Source: Alphaproteobacteria bacterium (GTDB lineage Bacteria > Pseudomonadota > Alphaproteobacteria > Thalassobaculales > Thalassobaculaceae). Taken from it: DNA of 34,994 bases. The notes below the pieces were generated by a model that did not search any database, was not told the DNA's origin, and worked only from the letters and a program-made list of their open reading frames with translations. A program made the position numbers and the translations under genes. Location: contig JANSYC010000042.1 of the NCBI GenBank assembly GCA_024742605.1, positions 1 through 34,994 on the forward strand, in the 5' to 3' direction. Of the stretch, positions 466-28,751 are shown in pieces; position 1 is the stretch's first letter, and every line of letters begins with the position of its first letter.

Positions 466-2721
466 TCATTCCGCCGCTTGCAGGGTTCCCTCGTCCAGCC
501 CTTCCAGCACCTTCGGCGGTGACATGGGAAGGCTGAAAAAGCGTTTGCCGACCGCATCGTGAATGGCATTGGCGACCGCCGCCATCACCGGCACCAGCGG
601 CACCTCGCCGACGCCGCGGACCCCTTGGGGATGTTTCGGGTTCGGAATTTCGATCATCACCGCGTCCAGCATCGGCATGTCGGAGCAGACCGGCATCCGG
701 TAATCGAGGAAGCTGGGATTATCCACCTGACCCTTGGCGTTGTAGATGTATTCCTCGTTGAGCGCCCAGCCGATGCCCTGGACGGCGCCGCCTTGGATCT
801 GCCCCTCCACATAGGCCGGGTGGATGGCCCGCCCGACATCCTGAAAGGAGGTGTAGCGGATGACCCGCACGATCCCGAGATCGACATCGACCTCGACATC
901 GCAGATATGGGTGCTGAAACCGCCCTCCGCCCCGGTGGTGTTGAGCTGCACGCCGGCGCCGATCGGCCCGCCGGTCGCGGTCGCCTTCGCGGCGATCTCC
1001 GCCAATGTCATGGTCGGAAAGTTCCCGGTGTGATCGCCGCTGGGGCGTGCCTCACCGTTCTCCCAGACCACGGCGTCGGCCTCGATTCCCCAGAGCTTGG
1101 CGGCCCGGGCCTTGAGTTGTCCGATCACCTGTTCGGCCGACTGGGTCACGACCATGGCCGAGGCGAACAGAACCCGGCTGCCGCCGGTCAGGTTGCTGTA
1201 GCCGATCGTGGCCGTATCCCCGATCAGGACCGACACCCGCCGATAGTCGATGCCGAGCAGTTCGGCCGCGATGTTCGCGATCGCCGCGCGGGACCCACCG
1301 ACATCGGGATGCCCGGTGGTCACCACGACATTGCCGTCTTCGGTGATGTTGACCTGCGCGCTGGACTCGCCACCGGCGTTGAACCAGTACCCGCTGGCCA
1401 CGCCCCGGCCTTGGAACTTTCCGAGGGGGGCTTTGTAGTGCGGATGCGCCTTGGCGGCCTCCATGGTCTCGAGCAGGCCGATGCGAGGATAGACCGGGCC
1501 GTGCGCCGCCTTGGTGCCTTCGCGGGCCGCGTTCCTGATGCGGAGGTCAAGCGGGTCGATGTTCAGGGCCTCGGCCAGCTCGTCCAGGACACATTCCACG
1601 GCATGGGCGCCGATCGGGGCACCCGGGGCACGGTAGGCCGCGACCTTTGAGCGATTTGAGACCACGTCGAACCCACGCGAGACGACATTGGGGATATCGT
1701 ATGGCGCGAAGGCGCATCCGGCGGCCCCGCGGATCGGCGAGCCGGGCAGGGCGCCCGCCTGCAGGTAGAACACGCCTTGGGCGGCGACGATCTTGCCGTC
1801 TTTGGTGGCGCCGATGCGCACGGTGCTCATCGACCCGGAGGTCGGACCCGTGGCCCGCATCACCTCCTCGCGGGTCATCACCATCTTGACCGGGCGGCCG
1901 GACTTCTTCGAGAGAATGGTCGCCAGCGGCTCGAGATAGATGATGGTCTTGCCGCCGAAACCCCCGCCGATCTCCGCCGGAATGGCGCGGATATCGCTTT
2001 GCGGCAGGCCCGTCAGAAAGGAGGTCATCGCCCGGACCATGAATTGGCCCTGACTGGAGCTCCAGATCGTGGTCCTACCGTCCGAGGCCACGCTGACCAG
2101 ACAGGCGTGGTTCTCGATATATCCCTGATGGATCGGGCGGGTGTTGAAGTCGCGCTCGATCACCACATCGGCTTTGGCGAAACCGGCGTCGATGTCGCCC
2201 AGCTTATGCTCCAGCGTGCCGGCGATATTTGACGGCTTGCCTTCGAACTGGATGAAGTCGTGAAGGATCGGCGCATCCGGTTTGATCGCGTCTTCGATTT
2301 CGATCGCCCAGGGCAGAACCTCGTAGTCGACCTCGATCAGCTTGCACGCCTCGGCGGCGATCGCCTCAGTGGTGGCGGCGACAGCGGCGATCGGGTGGCC
2401 GTGAAACAGGGCCTTCTCCCGCGCCATCACGTTACGGCACATCCATCGCATGTCCTGAATACCCAGCGGCACAGGCGTGTCGACCGGGAAGTCGACGATG
2501 TCTTTCGCGGTGACGACGGCCTTCACCCCGGCCAACGCCTCCGCCTTGGATGTGTCGATCGAGATAATCCTGGCATGTGGATGCGGGCTGCGCAGAACCT
2601 TGCCCCAGATCATTCCGGGCATGTTGGTGTCGGCGGCGTAGGCGGCCCGTCCGGTGACCTTGTCGGCGCCGTCGGGACGGATCGTGCTTTTGCCGATCCA
2701 GCTGTTGGTCATCTCGTTCAT
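466..2721 (-). CDS. Molybdenum-binding large subunit of xanthine dehydrogenase/CO dehydrogenase-family hydroxylase
   Basis: A 751-residue catalytic subunit of a heterotrimeric molybdenum hydroxylase. The start is the ATG at 2721 (MNEMTNSWIGKS), with GGGAGG seven bases upstream; the frame stays open far upstream, but that part overlaps the 2Fe-2S gene out of frame. Family landmarks are an aldehyde-oxidase a/b-hammerhead domain near the N terminus, the molybdopterin loop EIGGGFGGK, the active-site segment AYRAPGAP, and the C-terminal GVGEVPLVP carrying the base-catalytic Glu. The active-site loop lacks the AYxCSFR signature of true form I CO dehydrogenase, so this is an organic-substrate hydroxylase of unknown specificity. 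ATGA overlaps the preceding 2Fe-2S gene. Gene order is M-S-L, as in cox operons. Confidence 0.93.
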   Translation of the reverse strand: MNEMTNSWIGKSTIRPDGADKVTGRAAYAADTNMPGMIWGKVLRSPHPHARIISIDTSKAEALAGVKAVVTAKDIVDFPVDTPVPLGIQDMRWMCRNVMAREKALFHGHPIAAVAATTEAIAAEACKLIEVDYEVLPWAIEIEDAIKPDAPILHDFIQFEGKPSNIAGTLEHKLGDIDAGFAKADVVIERDFNTRPIHQGYIENHACLVSVASDGRTTIWSSSQGQFMVRAMTSFLTGLPQSDIRAIPAEIGGGFGGKTIIYLEPLATILSKKSGRPVKMVMTREEVMRATGPTSGSMSTVRIGATKDGKIVAAQGVFYLQAGALPGSPIRGAAGCAFAPYDIPNVVSRGFDVVSNRSKVAAYRAPGAPIGAHAVECVLDELAEALNIDPLDLRIRNAAREGTKAAHGPVYPRIGLLETMEAAKAHPHYKAPLGKFQGRGVASGYWFNAGGESSAQVNITEDGNVVVTTGHPDVGGSRAAIANIAAELLGIDYRRVSVLIGDTATIGYSNLTGGSRVLFASAMVVTQSAEQVIGQLKARAAKLWGIEADAVVWENGEARPSGDHTGNFPTMTLAEIAAKATATGGPIGAGVQLNTTGAEGGFSTHICDVEVDVDLGIVRVIRYTSFQDVGRAIHPAYVEGQIQGGAVQGIGWALNEEYIYNAKGQVDNPSFLDYRMPVCSDMPMLDAVMIEIPNPKHPQGVRGVGEVPLVPVMAAVANAIHDAVGKRFFSLPMSPPKVLEGLDEGTLQAAE

Positions 2722-3200
2722 CGTGCTGCCTCCCGCATTTCGGCGGCCGTATCGAGCACCGCGTGGACAATCTTGTCGTAGCCCGTGCACCGGCACAGGT
2801 TGCCGGCGAGCCAATACCGGACCTCTGTTTCCGTCGGGTTCATATTCTGCTCCAGAAGGGACTTCGCCGCGACCAGCATGCCCGGCGTGCAGATGCCGCA
2901 CTGCAGGGCCGCCAACTCCAGGAACTTCTGCTGCAGGGGATGAAGTTTCTCGCCTTGGGACATGCCCTCGATCGTCTCGATCTCGGCCCCGTCGGCCTCC
3001 ACCGCCAGCATCAGGCAGGCGCAGACAAGACGGCCGTCCAGTGTGACGCTGCAGGCACCGCAATCGCCGGTCGCACAGCCTTCCTTGGACCCGGTCAGGC
3101 CCAGAGGACCGCGCAGCACGTCCAGCATGGTGTCGCTCGCCTCGCAGAGGAACTCCGACGGCTCGCCATTTACCGTTGTTGAAACATGAAGCTTTGCCAT
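2718..3200 (-). CDS. 2Fe-2S subunit of molybdenum hydroxylase (CoxS/XdhC-type)
   Basis: A 160-residue iron-sulfur subunit that passes electrons from the Mo centre to FAD. The N-terminal plant-type ferredoxin domain shows GCATGDCGAC followed by a fourth Cys in VCACL. The C-terminal helical [2Fe-2S]-binding domain shows CGICTPG and LCRCTGY. All eight expected cluster cysteines appear to be present and the length is normal for the family. The start is ATG at 3200, four bases after the end of the FAD-subunit gene; the stop overlaps the large-subunit start as ATGA. It is certainly part of the same enzyme as its two neighbours. Confidence 0.95.
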   Translation of the reverse strand: MAKLHVSTTVNGEPSEFLCEASDTMLDVLRGPLGLTGSKEGCATGDCGACSVTLDGRLVCACLMLAVEADGAEIETIEGMSQGEKLHPLQQKFLELAALQCGICTPGMLVAAKSLLEQNMNPTETEVRYWLAGNLCRCTGYDKIVHAVLDTAAEMREAAR

Positions 3201-3204
3201 GATC

Positions 3205-4089
3205 TTAACTCCTTCCAGCGCGGTCAGCGGCGATGCCGGCAGTGCGCTTCAGCAGCACGCCGGCCACCTTCGTGCGATAAACAATGGTCCCACGCTTGTC
3301 GTCGATCGGATGACAGGCGGCGCGGCAGGCGGTGGCTGCGGCTTCCAGTGCCGCATCGTCCAGTTTCGAGCCGATCAGCGCCTTGGCCGCGTCCTCGACC
3401 AGCACCACGGTCGGCGCAACGGCGCCGAGGGCCACTCTGGCCGCGGTGCAGACACCGTCCTTCATGGATAGGTTCACGCCACATCCGACCACGGCAATAT
3501 CCATTTCCGTACGTGGGATCATCCGAAGATAGGCGTCGCTCGAGCCCGGCGCCCGCGGCGGCAGGGTGAAGCTGACCAGGATCTCGCCGGGGGCGAGGTT
3601 CGTGCGGCCGGGACCGACCGGCACCGCTTCCACCGGTATGTCGCGTCGCCCGCCCGGACCTTGCACGGTCACGGTGGCGCCGGCCGCGATCATCGCAGGA
3701 ACACTGTCGCCGGCGGGAGACCCGTTGCAGAGATTTCCCCCTGCGGAGGCCCGTCCCTGTATCTGGGTCGAGCCGATCAGGTTCAGGGCTTCCAGAACCC
3801 CGGGCCAGACCTTGCCGAATGTCGGGTGCTCCGCCAGAACGGCGCCGGACACCGCGGCCCCGACACGGAATCCACCTTCCGGTGTTTCTGATATTTCAGT
3901 GAGTTCTGAAATTTTCTTAATGTCTAATATCAGACCTGGGCTGATCATTCCGGACCGCATTTGCACCAAGAGGTCGGTGCCTCCAGCCAGAATGCGCGCG
4001 GCCCCCGCCGCGTCGGCGTATGCGCTGACCGCTTCGTCGAGCGTGTGCGGCGCCAAATATCGGATATCGGTCATGAGGCTTCCCGTCAT
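3205..4089 (-). CDS. FAD-binding middle subunit of molybdenum hydroxylase (CoxM-type)
   Basis: A 294-residue FAD subunit, first gene of the operon. The N-terminal domain contains ARILAGGTDLLVQMRSG, matching the FAD-binding AGGTDL motif. Further along, GNLCNGSPAGDSVPA matches the second flavin-contact loop of the family (usually GGNxxxxSPxxD). The C-terminal CO-dehydrogenase flavoprotein domain follows. Two starts are possible: ATG at 4089, with AGGA a few bases upstream, or ATG at 4074 (MTDIRYLAPHTL), which matches usual family N-termini better. The upstream 260 bases are shared with a divergently transcribed SDR gene. Confidence 0.92.
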   Translation of the reverse strand: MTGSLMTDIRYLAPHTLDEAVSAYADAAGAARILAGGTDLLVQMRSGMISPGLILDIKKISELTEISETPEGGFRVGAAVSGAVLAEHPTFGKVWPGVLEALNLIGSTQIQGRASAGGNLCNGSPAGDSVPAMIAAGATVTVQGPGGRRDIPVEAVPVGPGRTNLAPGEILVSFTLPPRAPGSSDAYLRMIPRTEMDIAVVGCGVNLSMKDGVCTAARVALGAVAPTVVLVEDAAKALIGSKLDDAALEAAATACRAACHPIDDKRGTIVYRTKVAGVLLKRTAGIAADRAGRS

Positions 4090-5236: not shown

Positions 5237-6133
5237 ATGTGCGGGATTGTCGGGCTCTATCTGAAATCCGAAACGTTGTCTGACGATCTGGGCCGATTGA
5301 CGGCATTGATGCTGCACGAGATGCGGGGACGCGGTCCCGATTCAGCCGGTTTTGCGGTCTATGGGAGCCCGGAATCCGGCTCGAAGCTCGTCTTGCTGTC
5401 GGAGACGGACGCGGTTAACTGGACAGAGATCGGACACCGTCTTGAGGCGGCTCAGGGGGCTGCGATCGACATCTCGCCGATCGCCAATCATGCGGTGCTG
5501 CGGACGGAAGGCGACGGGCAGGCGGCGCGGGATTGGCTGATCGCGCATGCGCCGGAGGTGACTGTCCTTTCGGTCGGACAATCCATTGAACTGTTCAAAG
5601 GCATCGGCGACCCGGATCTGGTGGCGGAGCGGTTCGGTCTGGCGGGTCGGTCCGGAACCCATGCGATCGCGCATACCCGCATGGCGACGGAGTCCGCCGT
5701 GACCACTGCGGGCTCCCATCCGTTTTCCACCGGCGCGGACACCTGTCTGGTCCACAATGGGTCGCTCTCCAATCACAACGGGCTGCGCCGTCGGCTGGAG
5801 AATTCCGGCGAGCGGTTCCAGACCGAGAACGATTCCGAGGTGGCGGCGGGCTATCTCGCCGCCCGGATGCGGTCCGGCGACACCCTGTCGGAAGCGGTTA
5901 AGGCAGCGCTGAAGGATCTCGACGGGTTCTACACCTTCGCGATCGGGACCGCTGAGGGTTTCGCCGTGGTACGGGATCCCATCGCCTGCAAGCCGGCGGT
6001 GATGGCGGAGACCGACGACTGGGTCGCGATGTCTTCGGAGTTCCGTGCAATCGCCAAGCTCCCGGGGGTTGAGCACGCGCGGATCTGGGAGCCGAAACCC
6101 TCACAGATCTATTCCTGGAGCCGATCGGCGTGA
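5237..6133 (+). CDS. glxB: Class II glutamine amidotransferase subunit (GlxB / N-methylglutamate synthase MgsA-like)
   Basis: A 298-residue N-terminal-nucleophile glutaminase domain. The start is the ATG at 5237 with GGGAG upstream, because class II amidotransferases need Cys2 exposed after Met removal and the protein begins MCGIVGLY. RGPDSAG, HTRMATES, VHNGSLSNH and TENDSE are the expected glutamine-site motifs. In GltB these functions are part of one polypeptide; here glutaminase, GXGXG and FMN domains are three genes, as in glxBCD of rhizobia and mgsABC of methylamine users. It overlaps glxC as GTGA. It likely supplies ammonia or handles a glutamyl amide within a GlxBCD complex in the cytoplasm. 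Confidence 0.9.
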   Translation: MCGIVGLYLKSETLSDDLGRLTALMLHEMRGRGPDSAGFAVYGSPESGSKLVLLSETDAVNWTEIGHRLEAAQGAAIDISPIANHAVLRTEGDGQAARDWLIAHAPEVTVLSVGQSIELFKGIGDPDLVAERFGLAGRSGTHAIAHTRMATESAVTTAGSHPFSTGADTCLVHNGSLSNHNGLRRRLENSGERFQTENDSEVAAGYLAARMRSGDTLSEAVKAALKDLDGFYTFAIGTAEGFAVVRDPIACKPAVMAETDDWVAMSSEFRAIAKLPGVEHARIWEPKPSQIYSWSRSA

Positions 6134-6834: not shown

Positions 6835-8169
6835 ATGACCGCTGCTCCGAAGAACCCACGAACCGCTCCCCGCAAATCCGCGACCTTCGACGAGCACACC
6901 TTATCGGAGATCAGGCGGGCGGCGGCGACGGGGATTTACGATATCCGCGGCGCGGGGGCCAAGCGGGCGCTGCCGCATTTCGACGATCTGCTCTTTCTCG
7001 GCGCGTCGATCTCCAGGTATCCGCTGGAAGGGTACCGCGAGACCTGCAGGACCGATGTGGTGCTGGGCGACCGGTTCGCCTCCAAGCCGATCCATCTGAA
7101 GATTCCGATCACGATCGCCGGGATGAGCTTTGGCTCCCTCTCCGCCCAGGCCAAGGAGGCGCTGGGGCGCGGGGCGTCGGCGATGGGGACCTCGACCACC
7201 ACCGGCGACGGCGGCATGACAGAGGAGGAGCGGGGCCACTCGAGCCAACTGGTCTACCAGTATTTGCCGTCCCGCTACGGCATGAACCCGGACGATCTGC
7301 GTCGCGCCGATGCGATCGAGGTGGTGATCGGCCAGGGAGCGAAGCCGGGCGGAGGCGGCATGCTGCTCGGTCAGAAGATCGGGGCCCGTGTTGCCGAGAT
7401 GCGCAACCTGCCCGAGGGGATCGACCAACGCTCGGCCTGTCGCCATCCGGACTGGACCGGCCCCGACGATCTTGAGATCAAGATCCAGGAACTCCGGGAG
7501 ATCACAAACTGGGAGAAGCCGATCTACGTGAAAGTCGGCGCCTCGCGGCCCTATTACGACATTGCGCTCGCGGTCAAATCGGGAGCCGATGTGGTCGTGC
7601 TCGACGGCATGCAGGGCGGGACGGCGGCGACCCAGGACGTCTTCATCGAACATGTCGGTATTCCAATACTCGGCGCGATCCGCCCGGCGGTGGCGGCCCT
7701 GCAGGAATTGGGCATGCACCGCAAGGTTCAGCTTGTGGTCTCGGGCGGGGTCCGAAACGGGGCCGATGTCGCGAAATGCCTGGCGCTGGGGGCGGACGCG
7801 GTCTCCATCGGGACGGCCGCCCTGGTGGCCATCGGCGATAACGACCCGCGTTGGGAGGCCGAGTACAACGCGCTCGGCACCACGGCAGGGGCCTACGATG
7901 ATTGGCACGAGGGCAATGATCCGGCTGGAATCACCACCCAGAATCCCGAATTGGCCTCCCGGCTCGATCCGATTGAGGCGGGCCGGCGCCTTGCCAACTA
8001 TTTGGCCGTTCTGACATTGGAGTGTCAGACCATCGCGCGGGCCAATGGCAAGTCGGATGTGCGCAATCTGGAGCCGGAGGATCTTGTGGCCCTGACGGTC
8101 GAGGCGGCGGCGATGGCACGGGTGCCGCTGGCGGGCACCGACTGGATACCGGGTCACAACGGCCGTTAG
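6835..8169 (+). CDS. glxD: FMN-binding glutamate synthase-like subunit (GlxD / MgsC-like)
   Basis: A 444-residue FMN-binding TIM barrel of the glutamate synthase family. AGMSFGSLSAQAKEAL, GQGAKPGGGGMLLGQK, VVLDGMQGGTAATQ and LVVSGGVRNGADVAKCL match the FMN/2-oxoglutarate-binding barrel segments of GltB. By recalled family pattern, GltB then carries three cysteines for a 3Fe-4S cluster just before a P-x-G-[IV]-x-T-Q segment; here the stretch before DPAGITTQNP contains none (TTAGAYDDWHEGN). This suggests a different electron route and is usual for the GlxD/MgsC branch as far as I recall. The start is ATG at 6835, nine bases after the glxC stop, with AAGG upstream. Confidence 0.9.
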   Translation: MTAAPKNPRTAPRKSATFDEHTLSEIRRAAATGIYDIRGAGAKRALPHFDDLLFLGASISRYPLEGYRETCRTDVVLGDRFASKPIHLKIPITIAGMSFGSLSAQAKEALGRGASAMGTSTTTGDGGMTEEERGHSSQLVYQYLPSRYGMNPDDLRRADAIEVVIGQGAKPGGGGMLLGQKIGARVAEMRNLPEGIDQRSACRHPDWTGPDDLEIKIQELREITNWEKPIYVKVGASRPYYDIALAVKSGADVVVLDGMQGGTAATQDVFIEHVGIPILGAIRPAVAALQELGMHRKVQLVVSGGVRNGADVAKCLALGADAVSIGTAALVAIGDNDPRWEAEYNALGTTAGAYDDWHEGNDPAGITTQNPELASRLDPIEAGRRLANYLAVLTLECQTIARANGKSDVRNLEPEDLVALTVEAAAMARVPLAGTDWIPGHNGR

Positions 8170-8218
8170 GGCACGAGCCGGAGGTTATCTCGAATCAACT
8201 GCGAAGAGGGGCGGCGGA

Positions 8219-9526
8219 ATGGCGATCAATCTGGCGAGTGAGGCGAAGAAGCGTGGCATCGAGTATTTCCTGATTTCCTTCGTCGATCTGTTCGGTGTGA
8301 TGCGGGCCAAGCTGGTCCCGGCCTCGGCAATCGCCGACATGGCGAAAGACGGTGCCGGCTTCGCGGGGTTCGCCGCCTGGCTGGATCTGAATCCCGCCCA
8401 TCCGGATATGTTCGCCATTCCCGACCCCGATAGCCTGATACAGCTGCCGTGGAAGCCGAGTGTCGGTTGGGTGGCGGCGGATCTGTACATGGACGGCAAA
8501 CCGCTGGACCAGGCCCCCCGCAACACCCTCAAGCGTCTGGTCGCAACCGCCGCAAAGCAGGGCTACCGCCTGAAGCACGGGGTGGAGTGCGAGTTCTTCC
8601 TGATCACGCCGGACGGCCGGTCGCTCGCCGATGCACAGGATTCCCAGGGCAAGCCCTGTTACGATATCGAGGCGCTGATGCGCCGGTACGACGTGATCAC
8701 CGAGATCTGCGACGCCATGCAGGCCCTCGGCTGGGGGCCGTATCAGAACGATCATGAGGATGCCAACGGCCAGTTCGAAATGAACTGGGATTACGCCGAC
8801 TCCCTGGTGACCGCCGACCGGCACGCGTTCTTCAAGTACATGGCGAAGTCGATTGCCGAGAAGCACGGGCTCCGCGCAACCTTCATGCCGAAACCCTTCA
8901 GCCATCTCACCGGTAACGGCTGCCATGCCCATGTCAGCCTGTGGGACACCGCCGGCAAGAAAAGCCTTTTCTCGGATTTCAAGGGCGAACTCGGGATTTC
9001 CGAGCTGGGCTATCACTTCCTGGGTGGCGTGATGGGACATGCGGCCGCCCTGTGCGCCATCGCAAATCCGACCGTTAATTCCTACAAGCGCCTGAACGCG
9101 CCGGTCACAGCCTCGGGTGCGACCTGGTCGCCGAACACCATCACCTATGGCGGCAACAACCGGACTCATATGGTTCGGATCCCCGATGCCGGGCGGTTCG
9201 AGGTGCGTCTGGCCGACGGTGCTGTGAATCCCTATCTGCTGCCGGCGGCCGTCTTGGCGGCGGGGCTCGACGGGATCGCCAAGAAGTCCGATCCCGGAAA
9301 ACGCATCGATCTCGATATGTATGCGGAACGGGACAAGGTTCGGGGTGTCAAAATGCTGCCACTGAACCTGCTGGACGCCCTGCGCGCGCTCGAGAAGGAC
9401 CGGACCCTGAGGTCCGTGATCGGGGAGGAGACCATGTCTGCGCTGATCAAGCTGCGCATGCAGGACTGGAACGCCTATTCCCGTGAACTGACGGAGTGGG
9501 AGCGCGCGAACACCCTCGATTGCTGA
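8219..9526 (+). CDS. glnT: Type III glutamine synthetase-like ligase (GlnT / gamma-glutamylmethylamide synthetase GmaS-like)
   Basis: A 435-residue ATP-dependent glutamate-amine ligase of the glutamine synthetase fold. Visible metal and substrate segments are VECEFFLITPDG, NDHEDANGQFEMNW, FMPKPFSHLTGNGCHAHVSL, and NNRTHMVRIPDAGRFEVRLAD near the C terminus. Together with the N-terminal KRGIEYFLISFVDLFGVMRAKLVP they fit the GlnT/GmaS branch rather than GlnA. GmaS joins methylamine to glutamate; GlnT-type enzymes use ammonia. The two are not separable by eye. It sits 49 bases after glxD, which is how gmaS accompanies mgsABC. Its end faces the convergent amidohydrolase gene with a 9-base gap. Confidence 0.9.
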   Translation: MAINLASEAKKRGIEYFLISFVDLFGVMRAKLVPASAIADMAKDGAGFAGFAAWLDLNPAHPDMFAIPDPDSLIQLPWKPSVGWVAADLYMDGKPLDQAPRNTLKRLVATAAKQGYRLKHGVECEFFLITPDGRSLADAQDSQGKPCYDIEALMRRYDVITEICDAMQALGWGPYQNDHEDANGQFEMNWDYADSLVTADRHAFFKYMAKSIAEKHGLRATFMPKPFSHLTGNGCHAHVSLWDTAGKKSLFSDFKGELGISELGYHFLGGVMGHAAALCAIANPTVNSYKRLNAPVTASGATWSPNTITYGGNNRTHMVRIPDAGRFEVRLADGAVNPYLLPAAVLAAGLDGIAKKSDPGKRIDLDMYAERDKVRGVKMLPLNLLDALRALEKDRTLRSVIGEETMSALIKLRMQDWNAYSRELTEWERANTLDC

Positions 9527-25605: not shown

Positions 25606-26277
25606 TCAGCACGCTTGACGCGCGTCCCGTTCGGCAAGAAGGAACCTCTGCAGCACTGCAACATCATCAAATTGAAGGACGCTTGGAAAGGCGTCTTCGC
25701 CGCCTTTCGGGTAGCCGCCGGTGAAGAAGGCAAAATCGACACCTGCCGACCTGGCCGTCTCGGCATCGACGACACTGTCTCCGACGTAGACGCCGTCCTC
25801 CGCTGAAACTCCCAACAGTGCCAATGTGTGCAGAAGCGGGGCTGGGTCCGGCTTCCGGCTGGGCAGCGTGTCGCCGGCCACCACAGCCTGAAACGCTGAC
25901 TCGAGCGACAGATCCGACAGGACGCGCCCGGTCATGGCCGATGGCTTGTTGGTGCAGAGGCCGACCGGTACTCGATGATCCGACAGGCTGGCGAGAAGGC
26001 CCCGGACGCCGGGATAAAGGGCTGTCTGTGCGGTGGGATGTGTCAGATAAAAGTCTTCGAACAGCCGGAAGCCGGTCTCGAAGAGATCATCCGGCACTCC
26101 GGCGTCCTCCAGACAGAGTCGGACGAGGTTGGGCACACCGTTTCCGATGAATGACACGGTCCGGTCCACACCGATCGGCGGCGCGTCGAGGGCCGTCAGC
26201 ATGTGAACTGCGGCAGCGTGAAGGTCGGGTGCACTGTCGATCAAAGTTCCGTCGAGATCGAACACGACTGCTTTCAT
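25606..26277 (-). CDS. gph: HAD-superfamily phosphatase, phosphoglycolate phosphatase-like
   Basis: A 223-residue haloacid-dehalogenase-fold phosphatase. Motif I is FDLDGTL (Asp7 nucleophile, Asp9), motif II falls at LCTNKP, motif III Lys at RKPDPAP, and motif IV at VGDSVVDAETA. The helical cap between residues ~15 and 80 is of the Gph type. The start at 26277 (MKAVVFDLDG) fits the family; an 18-residue longer form from an upstream ATG is possible. Gph removes 2-phosphoglycolate, but paralogues act on other phosphates. It is separated from the upstream B12 protein gene by 201 bases. Confidence 0.87.
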   Translation of the reverse strand: MKAVVFDLDGTLIDSAPDLHAAAVHMLTALDAPPIGVDRTVSFIGNGVPNLVRLCLEDAGVPDDLFETGFRLFEDFYLTHPTAQTALYPGVRGLLASLSDHRVPVGLCTNKPSAMTGRVLSDLSLESAFQAVVAGDTLPSRKPDPAPLLHTLALLGVSAEDGVYVGDSVVDAETARSAGVDFAFFTGGYPKGGEDAFPSVLQFDDVAVLQRFLLAERDARQAC

Positions 26278-26478
26278 GAGGTCCGTCTCGGTTGGGTTTC
26301 GAAGTCGGATTGCCACAACCTGACCCATACGTGTCGCGAGGGAAAGGGCGCAGCCGGGCTGCAGACACGGCCGCCGATTGGCGACGTTCAAGCACGGCTC
26401 TGCATCTGCGGCCGGCCGTGGATTCCAGTCACCTTTGAGCAGGCCGGCTTCCGACAATCGGTAATCAGGCGATCGGCC
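26278..26478. other. Intergenic gap between B12-protein gene and phosphatase gene
   Basis: About 200 bases with no supported gene, between two minus-strand genes. A short hairpin (CCGA-CAA-TCGG) lies near 26450-26462 just beyond the B12-protein stop, without a clear T-run. It probably contains the phosphatase promoter or the N-terminal extension of that gene. Confidence 0.35.
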
Positions 26479-27339
26479 CTACATGTCCGATGTCGGGGCC
26501 CATCTTTCGAGCAGAAGCTCGGAGAAGCGATCCATCTCGGTGATCGCCGACGCGGCGTCGAAGGCGATACCGTCGGCGCCGACGATCTGCATCAGATCCC
26601 GCTGTGTGTCCGCGAGCTGGCCGCTCACCAGAATCAGCAGCCATGGTTTGCTGATGCGAAGGGCGACGATCAACCGGCTGAGCGCGACGATCTTATCCTC
26701 GCTACCGGCCGACAGCCCGACGATCGGATAGTCGGTATTGTCGACGACCTCCAAGATCTGGTCGTGGGACAGTCCCACCTCCAGATCGATATCCCATGAC
26801 CGTCTCGAGAACATATCTGCTGCCATGGTGATTCCGATGGCGTGCTCTTCGCCGGGCGCGGTGGCGAATAAGGCGCGCTTCTCCGGCTTTGCCAAGGATG
26901 GTGTGAAATCCCCTCGAAGGCCGCGCAGGATTCCGAACATGCGCCCGGCCGCCACTGTCATATCGAACAGGCTTATCTCGTCGTCATCCCACCGCGTTCC
27001 CAATTGCGTGGCCGCCTGACCGATATAGCCGAGATAGACGATGTCGATGGGAACACCGGTCAACCGCTCCTGCAGAATCATGTTTGCCGCCGCATCCGGG
27101 TCATCTCCGACGAGCGCATCACACAAAGCGTCGATTCTCGCGGAGAGCAACGGCACGCCACCGGCTTTTCTGGGGGCGGATGCGCGCCTGACCAGGACAT
27201 TGACGACTTCTTCGGCTATGGCCCGAACGGAATCATGCGGAAGGCGGTCGGACGCACTGGAGAAGAATCTCGTGGCCTCCATGAAGGCGCCATGATCGAA
27301 CTCTTCGTAAACAACCGGTGACTTCTGCAATTGCCTCAC
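26479..27339 (-). CDS. Cobalamin-binding regulator of the AerR/PpaA type
   Basis: About 286 residues: a helical N-terminal domain (to ~150) followed by a Rossmann-type B12-binding domain. ATAPGEEHAIGITMAADMF supplies an E-x-H-x-x-G version of the B12 DxHxxG motif (His166), followed by SHDQILEVVDNTDYPIVGLS and a C-terminal AITEMDRFSELL. AerR/PpaA proteins are B12-dependent, light-responsive antirepressors of CrtJ/PpsR in purple bacteria. No DNA-binding or LOV/BLUF domain is seen. The GTG start at 27339 abuts its GAAGG site; TTG at 27330 and ATG at 27282 are alternatives. A TGT-N12-ACA site lies about 50 bases upstream. Confidence 0.8.
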   Translation of the reverse strand: MRQLQKSPVVYEEFDHGAFMEATRFFSSASDRLPHDSVRAIAEEVVNVLVRRASAPRKAGGVPLLSARIDALCDALVGDDPDAAANMILQERLTGVPIDIVYLGYIGQAATQLGTRWDDDEISLFDMTVAAGRMFGILRGLRGDFTPSLAKPEKRALFATAPGEEHAIGITMAADMFSRRSWDIDLEVGLSHDQILEVVDNTDYPIVGLSAGSEDKIVALSRLIVALRISKPWLLILVSGQLADTQRDLMQIVGADGIAFDAASAITEMDRFSELLLERWAPTSDM

Positions 27340-27630
27340 CCTTCGCGTCTATATCTCCACTTATTTTTTGTGGATTTAGACTGCATGTTCTTAAGCATTC
27401 ACAATTTAAACACTAGATACACTTCACGGCTATGTACAGGTGCTTAATGCATACTGGGTCGATGCCTTCAAGCCACGGTAATTCATATTCAAAAATCTAT
27501 ATTCTTCTAGGAATCATACGAAAATTAGTTCGCGGATAGCCGTGTTTGGAAGGCGTCATGTCCCTTCACAGCAAGGCGTGTGGCTTCGCACGCCACTTCA
27601 TGAAGAGCTTGAATCCTTGCTCTCGAACGC
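27340..27630. promoter_or_regulatory. AT-rich control region upstream of the B12-protein gene
   Basis: About 290 bases, strikingly AT-rich from 27350 to 27540 against GC-rich surroundings. No coding potential is seen on either strand apart from frames antisense to the next gene. It holds the TGT-N12-ACA motif and a loosely similar second block (TGCTTAATGCA near 27441-27451). The right part follows the stop of the ferric-reductase-like gene. Confidence 0.5.
27386..27403. promoter_or_regulatory. TGT-N12-ACA motif (PpsR/CrtJ-type operator candidate)
   Basis: TGT at 27386-27388 and ACA at 27401-27403 are separated by exactly 12 bases. This is the known consensus of the CrtJ/PpsR repressor, whose partner is AerR/PpaA, the family of the gene it precedes by 47 bases. 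Six fixed bases in an AT-rich stretch of this size could occur by chance at roughly the few-percent level, so this is only a candidate. Confidence 0.4.
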
Positions 27631-28242
27631 TCAGGAGCGGTTCCGTGAAAACGCCGTCCATATTCTGAGATCTGCCCCGGCTTTCAAGGTCGCCAGAATG
27701 GCTATGGTCGACAGCACCGCCTTTGTTGCGGTTTCCATCGCACCCTGGACCGGAATCACATGAGCTACGGTCAGCAGAACGGTTGCCGTGGCGAGGGTTG
27801 TGTGCACAAGCCGCCATGTCCTCGGCCGGAGCGCCGTCTGGCGGCGAAAAGCGGCCACAAGCGCTGCCGCAAATACAGTCCACATGGCGAGTACGCCCCA
27901 GACGGAAAACAGGGTCGGGGCTCGGAAGAGAAGGGCGTCCAGCGCGTCGGGCGGACTTGTGATCCAAAGAGCCACGACATGGAGGATCACCGCTCCGACC
28001 ACCGCCCCGCCAAGACCACGATGCACGCGTCGACTGTGCTGCGCCGACAGCCCTGGCAGATAGCCTCCCGCCAGCAAGGGCTGAAAGAGAAGAAAGACCA
28101 GCGCAAGAATGCCCGCGAAGGTGGCGGCGATATAGATCGGACTGCGCCATGCCAGCAGGGGACTCGCTGCGGCCGCCGCTATCGGCACCACGACGACAGC
28201 CCCTAGAACGGCCCATATCAAGGCCGCGCGGGTCCGCCCCAT
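27631..28242 (-). CDS. Ferric reductase-like transmembrane cytochrome b-type protein
   Basis: About 203 residues with some five to six hydrophobic helices. Two helices carry spaced histidines, HRGLGGAVVGAVILHVVAL and VHTTLATATVLLTVAHVIPV, the pattern of the ferric-reductase-like haem b domain. I use ATG at 28242; a TTG at 28257 in frame would add five residues. It follows the Tat-exported intradiol-like gene by about 20 bases and is likely its membrane electron partner. No flavin or NAD domain is attached, so the electron donor is unknown. Confidence 0.78.
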   Translation of the reverse strand: MGRTRAALIWAVLGAVVVVPIAAAAASPLLAWRSPIYIAATFAGILALVFLLFQPLLAGGYLPGLSAQHSRRVHRGLGGAVVGAVILHVVALWITSPPDALDALLFRAPTLFSVWGVLAMWTVFAAALVAAFRRQTALRPRTWRLVHTTLATATVLLTVAHVIPVQGAMETATKAVLSTIAILATLKAGADLRIWTAFSRNRS

Positions 28243-28262
28243 TCCGGTCGAAGCCAACGCAG

Positions 28263-28751
28263 CTAGACCGGCCTCAGAACGAAGTCTGCTTCCAGACTGG
28301 TATCTTGCGGACTGTTCATGACGGGACGCAAGAAAACGGTTTCGAAGTCTCCGCTGTCATAGGCGAGATGCCCGTGCGGTTGGCCGAATGCCGGGACGAT
28401 CTGCGGCATTTCAAGACGGAAAACCCCGTTCTCGTCGGTCAGCGTGGCGCCGTGGCTCTGCGGGTCCCGTTCATATCCTTCGGTCGTATGTGCCCAGATC
28501 TGAATGCGCTGACCCGGGAGCGGTGCGCCGTCGCCCGCGCGGCGGACGGTGCCGGTCATCCAAAACCCTCCGCCACCTATGCGGTCGACGATTGGCGCGC
28601 CCGGACGATAGTTGTTCGAGCCGCCGCGCATCGAGGGCGTCGGAGCGAGTCCCTTGGCCTGAGCCGGCATGAAGACGCTGGTCGCTCCAGTTGCCATAAC
28701 GGCGCCAGCGCTTGCGATAAGGGCTCGGCGCGTGATCAGCGTGCTGGTCAT
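28263..28751 (-). CDS. Tat-exported intradiol dioxygenase-like protein
   Basis: A 162-residue protein with a twin-arginine signal, ITRRALIASAG (Arg8-Arg9) then a hydrophobic core and AQA cleavage near residue 32. The mature part shows GTVRRAGDGAPLPGQRIQIW and GATLTDENGVFRLEMP, matching the beta-sandwich of intradiol ring-cleavage dioxygenases, and QPHGHLAY (His126, His128) at the place of the iron-binding HxH. The second iron Tyr, usually in a Pro-Gly-x-Tyr segment before HxH, is not seen (IVPAFG). It may bind metal without being a dioxygenase. AGGAGG seven bases before the ATG at 28751 is a strong start. Confidence 0.72.
   Translation of the reverse strand: MTSTLITRRALIASAGAVMATGATSVFMPAQAKGLAPTPSMRGGSNNYRPGAPIVDRIGGGGFWMTGTVRRAGDGAPLPGQRIQIWAHTTEGYERDPQSHGATLTDENGVFRLEMPQIVPAFGQPHGHLAYDSGDFETVFLRPVMNSPQDTSLEADFVLRPV

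Follow-up and report, generated by a model that had tools for sequence, protein, structure and literature searches.

The window, which is the whole 34,994-nucleotide stretch of DNA that was analysed, contains an open frame for an AerR/PpaA-like B12-binding protein. We refer to it as AerR2, a label coined in this analysis for the second AerR/PpaA branch. The locus has the following features.

26479–27339, minus strand: AerR2, encoding the AerR/PpaA-like B12-binding protein; 286 codons (amino acids) counted from GTG 27339.
26842–26844, minus strand: codon of His166, in PGEEHAIG, the equivalent of AerR His145 in the 7te2 alignment; the codon was counted from the residue number.
27323–27381, minus strand: a 59-base block with the leader and start codon, a candidate operator or leader hairpin.
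27386–27403, plus strand: the flagged TGT-N12-ACA match, TGTTCTTAAGCATTCACA, 46 bases before GTG 27339 (offset −64).
25606–26277, minus strand: a HAD-type phosphatase gene 3' of AerR2, starting MKAVVFDLDGTLIDSAPDLH.

TTG 27330, preceded by AAGGGTGAGG, is a likelier AerR2 start than GTG 27339 because the GTG abuts AAGG. PF13419 matches the longer open frame 25606–26457 (E 6e-30), which gives the phosphatase assignment. An orthologue 88% identical to AerR2 was found in a second genome of the same genus (G001, contig C753), where the order of AerR2 and the phosphatase gene is the same, and the closest named record belongs to an uncultured Rhodospirillaceae bacterium. Elsewhere in the window, genes for the large and FAD subunits of a CO-dehydrogenase type molybdenum hydroxylase lie at 466–4089 (minus strand), and tandem glutamate-synthase-like and glutamine-synthetase-like genes lie at 6835–9523 (plus strand). 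The order of the latter pair suggests an N-methylglutamate (methylamine) pathway.

The AerR2 protein matches the Pfam B12-binding family PF02310 with an E-value of 8e-10 (39 bits against a cut-off of 32.1). Its best relative of solved structure is AerR (7te2; E 1.2e-13 over residues 78–269); other cobalamin proteins with solved structures reach E 3e-4 at best. A Pfam scan found no DNA-binding domain in AerR2 and no methyltransferase family among the scanned neighbours. In AerR, His145 is the lower cobalt ligand, Trp94 and Phe101 form a cap over the upper ligand, Gly220 belongs to a GG pair, and His10 of the long form (LAerR) is the light-dependent upper ligand (PMC9144470). These roles were mapped onto the window protein by counting along the 7te2 alignment, and conservation was compared in 87 rows consisting of 36 AerR2 and 51 other AerR/PpaA sequences. 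The lower-ligand His (window His166) and the cap Trp (window Trp117) are invariant, each being present in 36/36 AerR2 and 51/51 other rows. Cap residue Phe101 corresponds to Leu124 in the window protein; this position is Phe in 26/36 and Leu in 4/36 AerR2 rows, and Phe in 51/51 others. The first Gly of the GG pair is Ser in the window protein and is Gly in 9/36 AerR2 rows compared to 51/51 others, with the second (Gly220) kept. Window His16 resembles His10 of LAerR, in a column that is His in 3/36 AerR2 rows. Phe158, Ala173, and Pro232 each occur in 36/36 AerR2 rows, compared to 4/51, 8/51, and 13/51 of the other rows, respectively. A structure predicted from the two-sequence alignment had a mean pLDDT of 36.9, which is too poor for a fold search. 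The sequence-only reading had called the protein AerR/PpaA-like, and the PF02310 match, the 7te2 relationship, and the retained ligand His bear it out.

The host genome (4.47 Mb, 187 contigs, completeness 100, contamination 1.09) carries the reaction-centre genes pufL and pufM, both on contig C35. A single PpsR/CrtJ protein scored above the curated cut-off (472.9 bits compared to 275.4) and is encoded at C169:24380–25708. A canonical AerR adjoins ppsR (C169:25943–26491) and shares 35% identity with residues 95–273 of the window protein. The window AerR2 lies on contig C126. Since the host has a separate canonical aerR beside ppsR, the window gene is a second, unlinked AerR-type gene; it does not adjoin ppsR and is therefore an AerR/PpaA family relative rather than the canonical aerR. 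These data agree with the earlier statement that the gene lies away from photosynthesis genes. The photosynthetic status that the sequence-only reading left open is answered by PpsR and pufL/M: the host genome is that of a phototroph, and the missing PpsR homologue that was named as counting against CrtJ/PpsR-type control is not the case here. A near-palindromic PpsR-type sequence, CGTAAACTAAAATTTACA (L025 10658–10675; score 14.5), lies at some distance upstream of the host's canonical aerR.

The TGT-N12-ACA match reported by the sequence-only reading is present upstream of AerR2 and is barely beyond chance. The pattern occurs six times in the whole window compared to 3.06 ± 1.90 expected, and 12/100 shuffles reach six. 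When the 226-base intergenic stretch was shuffled, 97/2000 shuffles held at least one match. The flagged motif does not have the TGTC...GACA form. Two matrices were used for scoring. The 12-site PpsR matrix consists of photosynthesis-linked, ChIP-mapped R. sphaeroides sites, rows 1–12 of the 19 in Table 2 of PMC4344238, and the 18-site matrix also contains some sites that begin TGTG and were tied to no photosynthesis operon. The flagged motif scores 2.9 on the 12-site matrix, the 55th percentile of control upstreams, compared to 14.8–20.9 for the training sites and 12.0–16.1 for the photosynthesis-cluster sites of the host. On the 18-site matrix, where it is less clearly a poor site, it scores 6.1 and places the window upstream at the 92nd percentile of controls; training sites score 13.8–20.1 and host cluster sites 10.6–15.8. 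Shuffles of the 300 bases upstream of AerR2 scored as well as the flagged motif in 703/1000 cases, and 64% of random TGT-N12-ACA sequences equal it on the inner 12 bases with a matrix of the relatives' sites. No second TGT-N12-ACA that might act as a tandem partner was found within 350 bases upstream of the window AerR2.

The flagged motif was compared between the host and G001. Its ends read TGG for TGT and AAA for ACA in G001, so both are broken, and 10/18 bases are kept. By comparison, 5/5 photosynthesis-cluster sites keep 16–18 of their 18 bases with the ends intact. Four of these five host sites are TGTC-N10-GACA, and one of the five, at 5987, falls within an open frame. Two pairs of host sites, in the crtD/prenyl synthase gap and before bchC, are 26 bases apart from start to start. 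The same spacing is found in the tandem CrtJ operator of bchC, where binding is tandem (PMC6199135), whereas the flagged motif stands alone. TGTC-N10-GACA occurs at 86 places in the host genome compared to 27 for the reversed pattern, so it is not specific by itself; the places inspected closely were those in C35. The best-scoring stretch in the 160 bases upstream of AerR2 in G001 is the aligned place (score 2.2, same offset of −64), so the flagged motif may be a decayed site. Together, the chance counts, matrix scores, shuffles, and loss in G001 led us to reject the bare TGT-N12-ACA pattern as evidence of an operator. The flagged motif is probably not a working operator but a chance match or a decayed site. 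A bare TGT-N12-ACA needs an extended consensus and neighbour species before it is named an operator.

The 59-base block next to the flagged motif is the better conserved element at the AerR2 start. It is 54/59 identical in G001, whereas identity is 47/90 in the adjacent upstream stretch and 61% for third positions of codons. A dyad, GTCTAAATCCAC-N9-GTGGAGATATAGAC, lies inside the block at 27347–27381. A 71-nt stretch of the region folds as a hairpin at −14.3 kcal/mol (z −2.69), and 3/200 shuffles folded equally well. Two of the five G001 substitutions in the block break end pairs of the hairpin and none compensates, so the comparison with G001 gives no support to an RNA structure. We rejected the idea that the leader holds a known RNA such as a cobalamin riboswitch, as Rfam gave no match at E ≤ 5 in 26000–28400; the whole window had no Rfam match at the gathering score. 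Exact copies of the block were absent from 151 loci apart from the window and G001 stretches. AerR2 expression in the window's genus is more likely set through this block than through the flagged motif.

Searches with the window protein covered 41 relatives, the 36 genomes of its own family (the order-level set is the same 36), 385 genomes of the class, and 394 genomes of another family, f23. In the first three sets the only close AerR2 orthologue came from the second genome of the window's genus, and tree assignment likewise places AerR2 in only the two genomes of that genus among the 36 of the family. A nearly full-length relative, 41% identical, was found in f23 (genome G285), and 76/394 f23 genomes have an AerR2-type best match. 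A best match was called AerR2-type when its E-value was under 1e-22; a tree was used to place 30 of these 76, and the rest were assigned by score alone. Two further genomes that passed (G416 and G607) were left out, their match being a canonical gene adjoining ppsR. The clade also appears in plasmid records of Sulfitobacter guttiformis, S. alexandrii, Sulfitobacter sp. S190, and Rhodobacteraceae bacterium SC52. These are 4 of 21 records matched; the other records are 25–32% identical. The named plasmid records place the clade in the Rhodobacterales, so f23 is probably Rhodobacteraceae.

Two trees were used to place the clade. A FastTree analysis of 83 rows put the window and G001 proteins in a group of 32 with a support of 0.957. 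A mixture-model tree of 62 of the 87 rows had a branch dividing the 36 AerR2 rows from the others (SH-aLRT 88, not starred). Both trees put the window pair among the f23 rows. The topology with the pair outside those rows has an AU p of 0.368, so horizontal gain and loss are both compatible with the data. The trees and counts indicate that AerR2 is a distinct clade of the AerR/PpaA family, frequent within one large family of the Alphaproteobacteria. At L017, L062, L065, L067, and L130, AerR-like proteins were also seen with no ppsR in the short flank, and other orphan branches may exist.

PpsR (E ≤ 1e-50) was detected in 74/76 AerR2 carriers compared to 165/394 f23 genomes overall (Fisher p 8e-31, with genomes that are not independent). 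The four weakest of the 76 carriers (G572, G724, G790, and G793) all have PpsR. The two carriers without a detected PpsR are G421, with a completeness of 100, and G436. AerR2 and PpsR may co-occur simply because both track phototrophy.

Upstream regions of AerR2 were scanned for PpsR-type sites at 34 loci, 300 bases each. These were 30 f23 loci and the four plasmids, which are the most window-like ones rather than a random sample. TGT-N12-ACA gave 21 hits in 18/34 AerR2 upstreams, whereas spacings of 4–11 and 13–23 gave 0–4 hits. The same pattern was found in 25/286 upstreams of mechanical frames of at least 280 codons from 20 contexts. With the 12-site matrix, 19/34 AerR2 upstreams reached a score of 10 compared to 2/210 control upstreams, and 15/34 were below the threshold. 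Because the 210 controls are richer in G+C (0.63 compared to 0.577) and many are not promoters, extra controls were added. One of 58 low-GC controls (GC ≤ 0.60) reached 10, and when the 34 AerR2 upstreams were themselves dinucleotide-shuffled 60 times, a mean of 0.63 per round reached 10, with at most 3. The 18-site matrix gave 18/34 AerR2 upstreams compared to 2/210 controls. The canonical ppaA loci of f23 (450 bases each) served as a positive control, and 18/19 were positive. The exception, L130, has no ppsR in the stretch, and a twentieth locus that gave no match was not counted. One AerR2 orthologue carries TGTCAGGCTTGATTGACA in its upstream. These scores make it plausible that the aerR2 genes of many relatives are PpsR targets. 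The earlier suggestion of PpsR-type autoregulation is plausible for the relatives, where 19/34 upstreams have strong sites, and is not supported for the motif on which it was based, which scores 2.9 and is broken in G001. Absence of the motif from orthologous promoters had been named as evidence against that suggestion; it is absent within the genus, in G001, and PpsR-type sites are present in the wider family.

The genomic context of AerR2 differs among relatives. On the three Sulfitobacter plasmids, AerR2 borders the photosynthesis cluster, with a c-type cytochrome gene and chlG as neighbours, and these clusters also hold a BCD transporter, geranylgeranyl reductase, idi, dxs, and puf genes. 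On the SC52 plasmid, AerR2 neighbours the genes of a PQQ dehydrogenase and of a 4Fe-4S protein, and no photosynthesis gene is annotated in the 20.8 kb around it. Of 21 f23 AerR2 contexts of 14–17 kb, 19 do not contain ppsR. In the other two, L116 (6203–9072) and L123 (5890–8740), a PpaA-type gene, ppsR, and AerR2 are contiguous, with AerR2 convergent to ppsR. One repressor gene is flanked by two AerR-type genes at these loci, and the coordinates in G782 also put AerR2 and ppsR adjacent and convergent. Five contexts (L105, L106, L107, L119, and L121) have a sigma-32 gene (NCBIfam RpoH) 2–4 kb upstream of AerR2 on the same strand, with an oxidoreductase-like gene between the two. Apart from an ABC-transporter family, no neighbours are common to the f23 contexts and the window.

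AerR-type proteins bind cobalamin and alter the action of PpsR/CrtJ at promoters (PMC9144470, PMC6199135, PMC10890935). A second B12 co-regulator with feedback is the simplest account of AerR2 because the ligand is kept, PpsR co-occurs, and PpsR-type sites lie upstream. It is probable, in our estimate, that AerR2 is a second B12-dependent PpsR co-regulator that is PpsR-controlled in many relatives, here probably not through the flagged motif. AerR2 would most likely bind cobalamin between the helical cap and the Rossmann domain, with His166 below and Trp117 above. It would then bind PpsR in a B12-dependent and perhaps light-dependent manner and change the hold of PpsR on photosynthesis promoters. 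PpsR would in this way receive two inputs, one from AerR2 and one from the canonical AerR whose gene adjoins ppsR. The aerR2 promoters of many relatives are in turn probably occupied by PpsR, which would create a feedback loop comparable to the ppaA loop. For the window's genus, this loop would probably not run through the flagged motif, and expression would more likely be set via the 59-base block. We put forward more tentatively a broader proposal that the second AerR/PpaA branch, found in about one-fifth of genomes and nearly one per genus of one family, is a PpsR-controlled, B12-dependent photosystem co-regulator that in the window's genus has been freed from PpsR and come under a leader element.

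Other readings were weighed against the same data. AerR2 may have left PpsR, binding B12 and regulating another partner by B12, light, or redox. This is unlikely but deserves consideration, as the window copy is an orphan, 19/21 contexts of relatives (14–17 kb) have no ppsR, and two carriers have no detected PpsR. The rpoH and oxidoreductase-like genes 1–4 kb upstream in five f23 contexts would also suit another partner, and an R. rubrum family member acts beyond photosynthesis (PMC10734443). The presence of PpsR in 74/76 carriers, the PpsR-type sites upstream, the photosynthesis-cluster location on three plasmids, and the position adjoining ppsR in two genomes instead tie AerR2 to PpsR. We consider it highly improbable that the window protein, rather than being a regulator, serves as the corrinoid protein of an MtgC/MtbC-type methyltransferase system. 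A weak MtgC match (E 0.0018, 17.8 bits compared to a cut-off of 370) would fit this idea, and the much better match to AerR (other cobalamin structures reach E 3e-4 at best) and the lack of a methyltransferase family among the scanned neighbours argue against it. The AerR2 trees hold AerR-type rows only, and a corrinoid protein falls outside their scope.

The remaining readings concern the flagged motif. An ancestral PpsR operator at this place may be in the course of being lost in the window's genus. The best stretch of G001 being the aligned one (2.2 at −64) and the many relatives with a strong site between −60 and −160 fit such decay, but both scores are at the background level of the 12-site matrix, and two related sequences do not separate decay from chance; we judge decay to be unlikely. 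That PpsR also represses aerR2 in this genome by binding 27386–27403, with the motif acting as a weak or solitary site, is quite unlikely. The half-sites are exact, the offset of −64 is in the range of the relatives (for example, −62, −63, and −70), and the AerR2 family overall is tied to PpsR-type sites. The pattern arose in only 97/2000 shuffled intergenic stretches, and the score of 6.1 reaches the 92nd percentile on the 18-site matrix, in which some sites begin TGTG. Binding at this motif is contradicted by its score of 2.9 at the 55th percentile beside 12.0–16.1 for the host's own cluster sites, by the 703/1000 upstream shuffles and 64% of random patterns (inner 12 bases) that equal it, by the lack of a second match within 350 bases, and by its broken core in G001, where 5/5 cluster sites are kept.

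The B12 domains of CarH/LitR and AerR2 have an E-x-H-x-x-G type signature. CarH/LitR shares the B12-binding domain with AerR2, in which no DNA-binding domain was found by Pfam scan, and NCBIfam CarH gave 13.7 bits with the window protein against a cut-off of 400. The closest known system is AerR (LAerR/SAerR) of Rhodobacter capsulatus, whose structure is 7te2. The two proteins have the same kind of B12 domain, with the ligand His, the cap Trp, and Gly220 in common, whereas the window protein has Leu for Phe101 and Ser for the first Gly of GG. The window gene also differs in not being linked to crtJ/ppsR, and its clade is apart from the sampled ppsR-linked rows. PpaA of Cereibacter (Rhodobacter) sphaeroides and Dinoroseobacter shibae belongs to the same family, and its gene has PpsR-type sites upstream, as do many AerR2 genes. 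However, ppaA is located upstream of ppsR and AerR2 is usually elsewhere. The window's genome carries an AerR/PpaA gene in addition to AerR2, as do those f23 genomes that have a second match. Two-hybrid binding of D. shibae PpaA to PpsR requires B12 (PMC10890935). HP1 (Rru_A0625) of Rhodospirillum rubrum is likewise an unusual family member and affects pigment synthesis, but it adjoins ppsR, has 181 amino acids, and has lost the cobalamin motif (PMC10734443), whereas AerR2 keeps the motif and is a second copy. Our literature search, whose reach did not extend to the survey of Vermeulen and Bauer 2015, found no description of a second AerR/PpaA branch.

AerR2 is a ready knock-out target. Deletion of ppaA in R. 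sphaeroides has little effect (PMC5362033), and AerR2 could bear on this weak effect if it occurs there. A widespread, mostly unlinked AerR branch with PpsR-type sites would add a missing input to the light/redox circuit. If the proposed role is true, many phototrophs read cobalamin through two separate AerR-type sensors.
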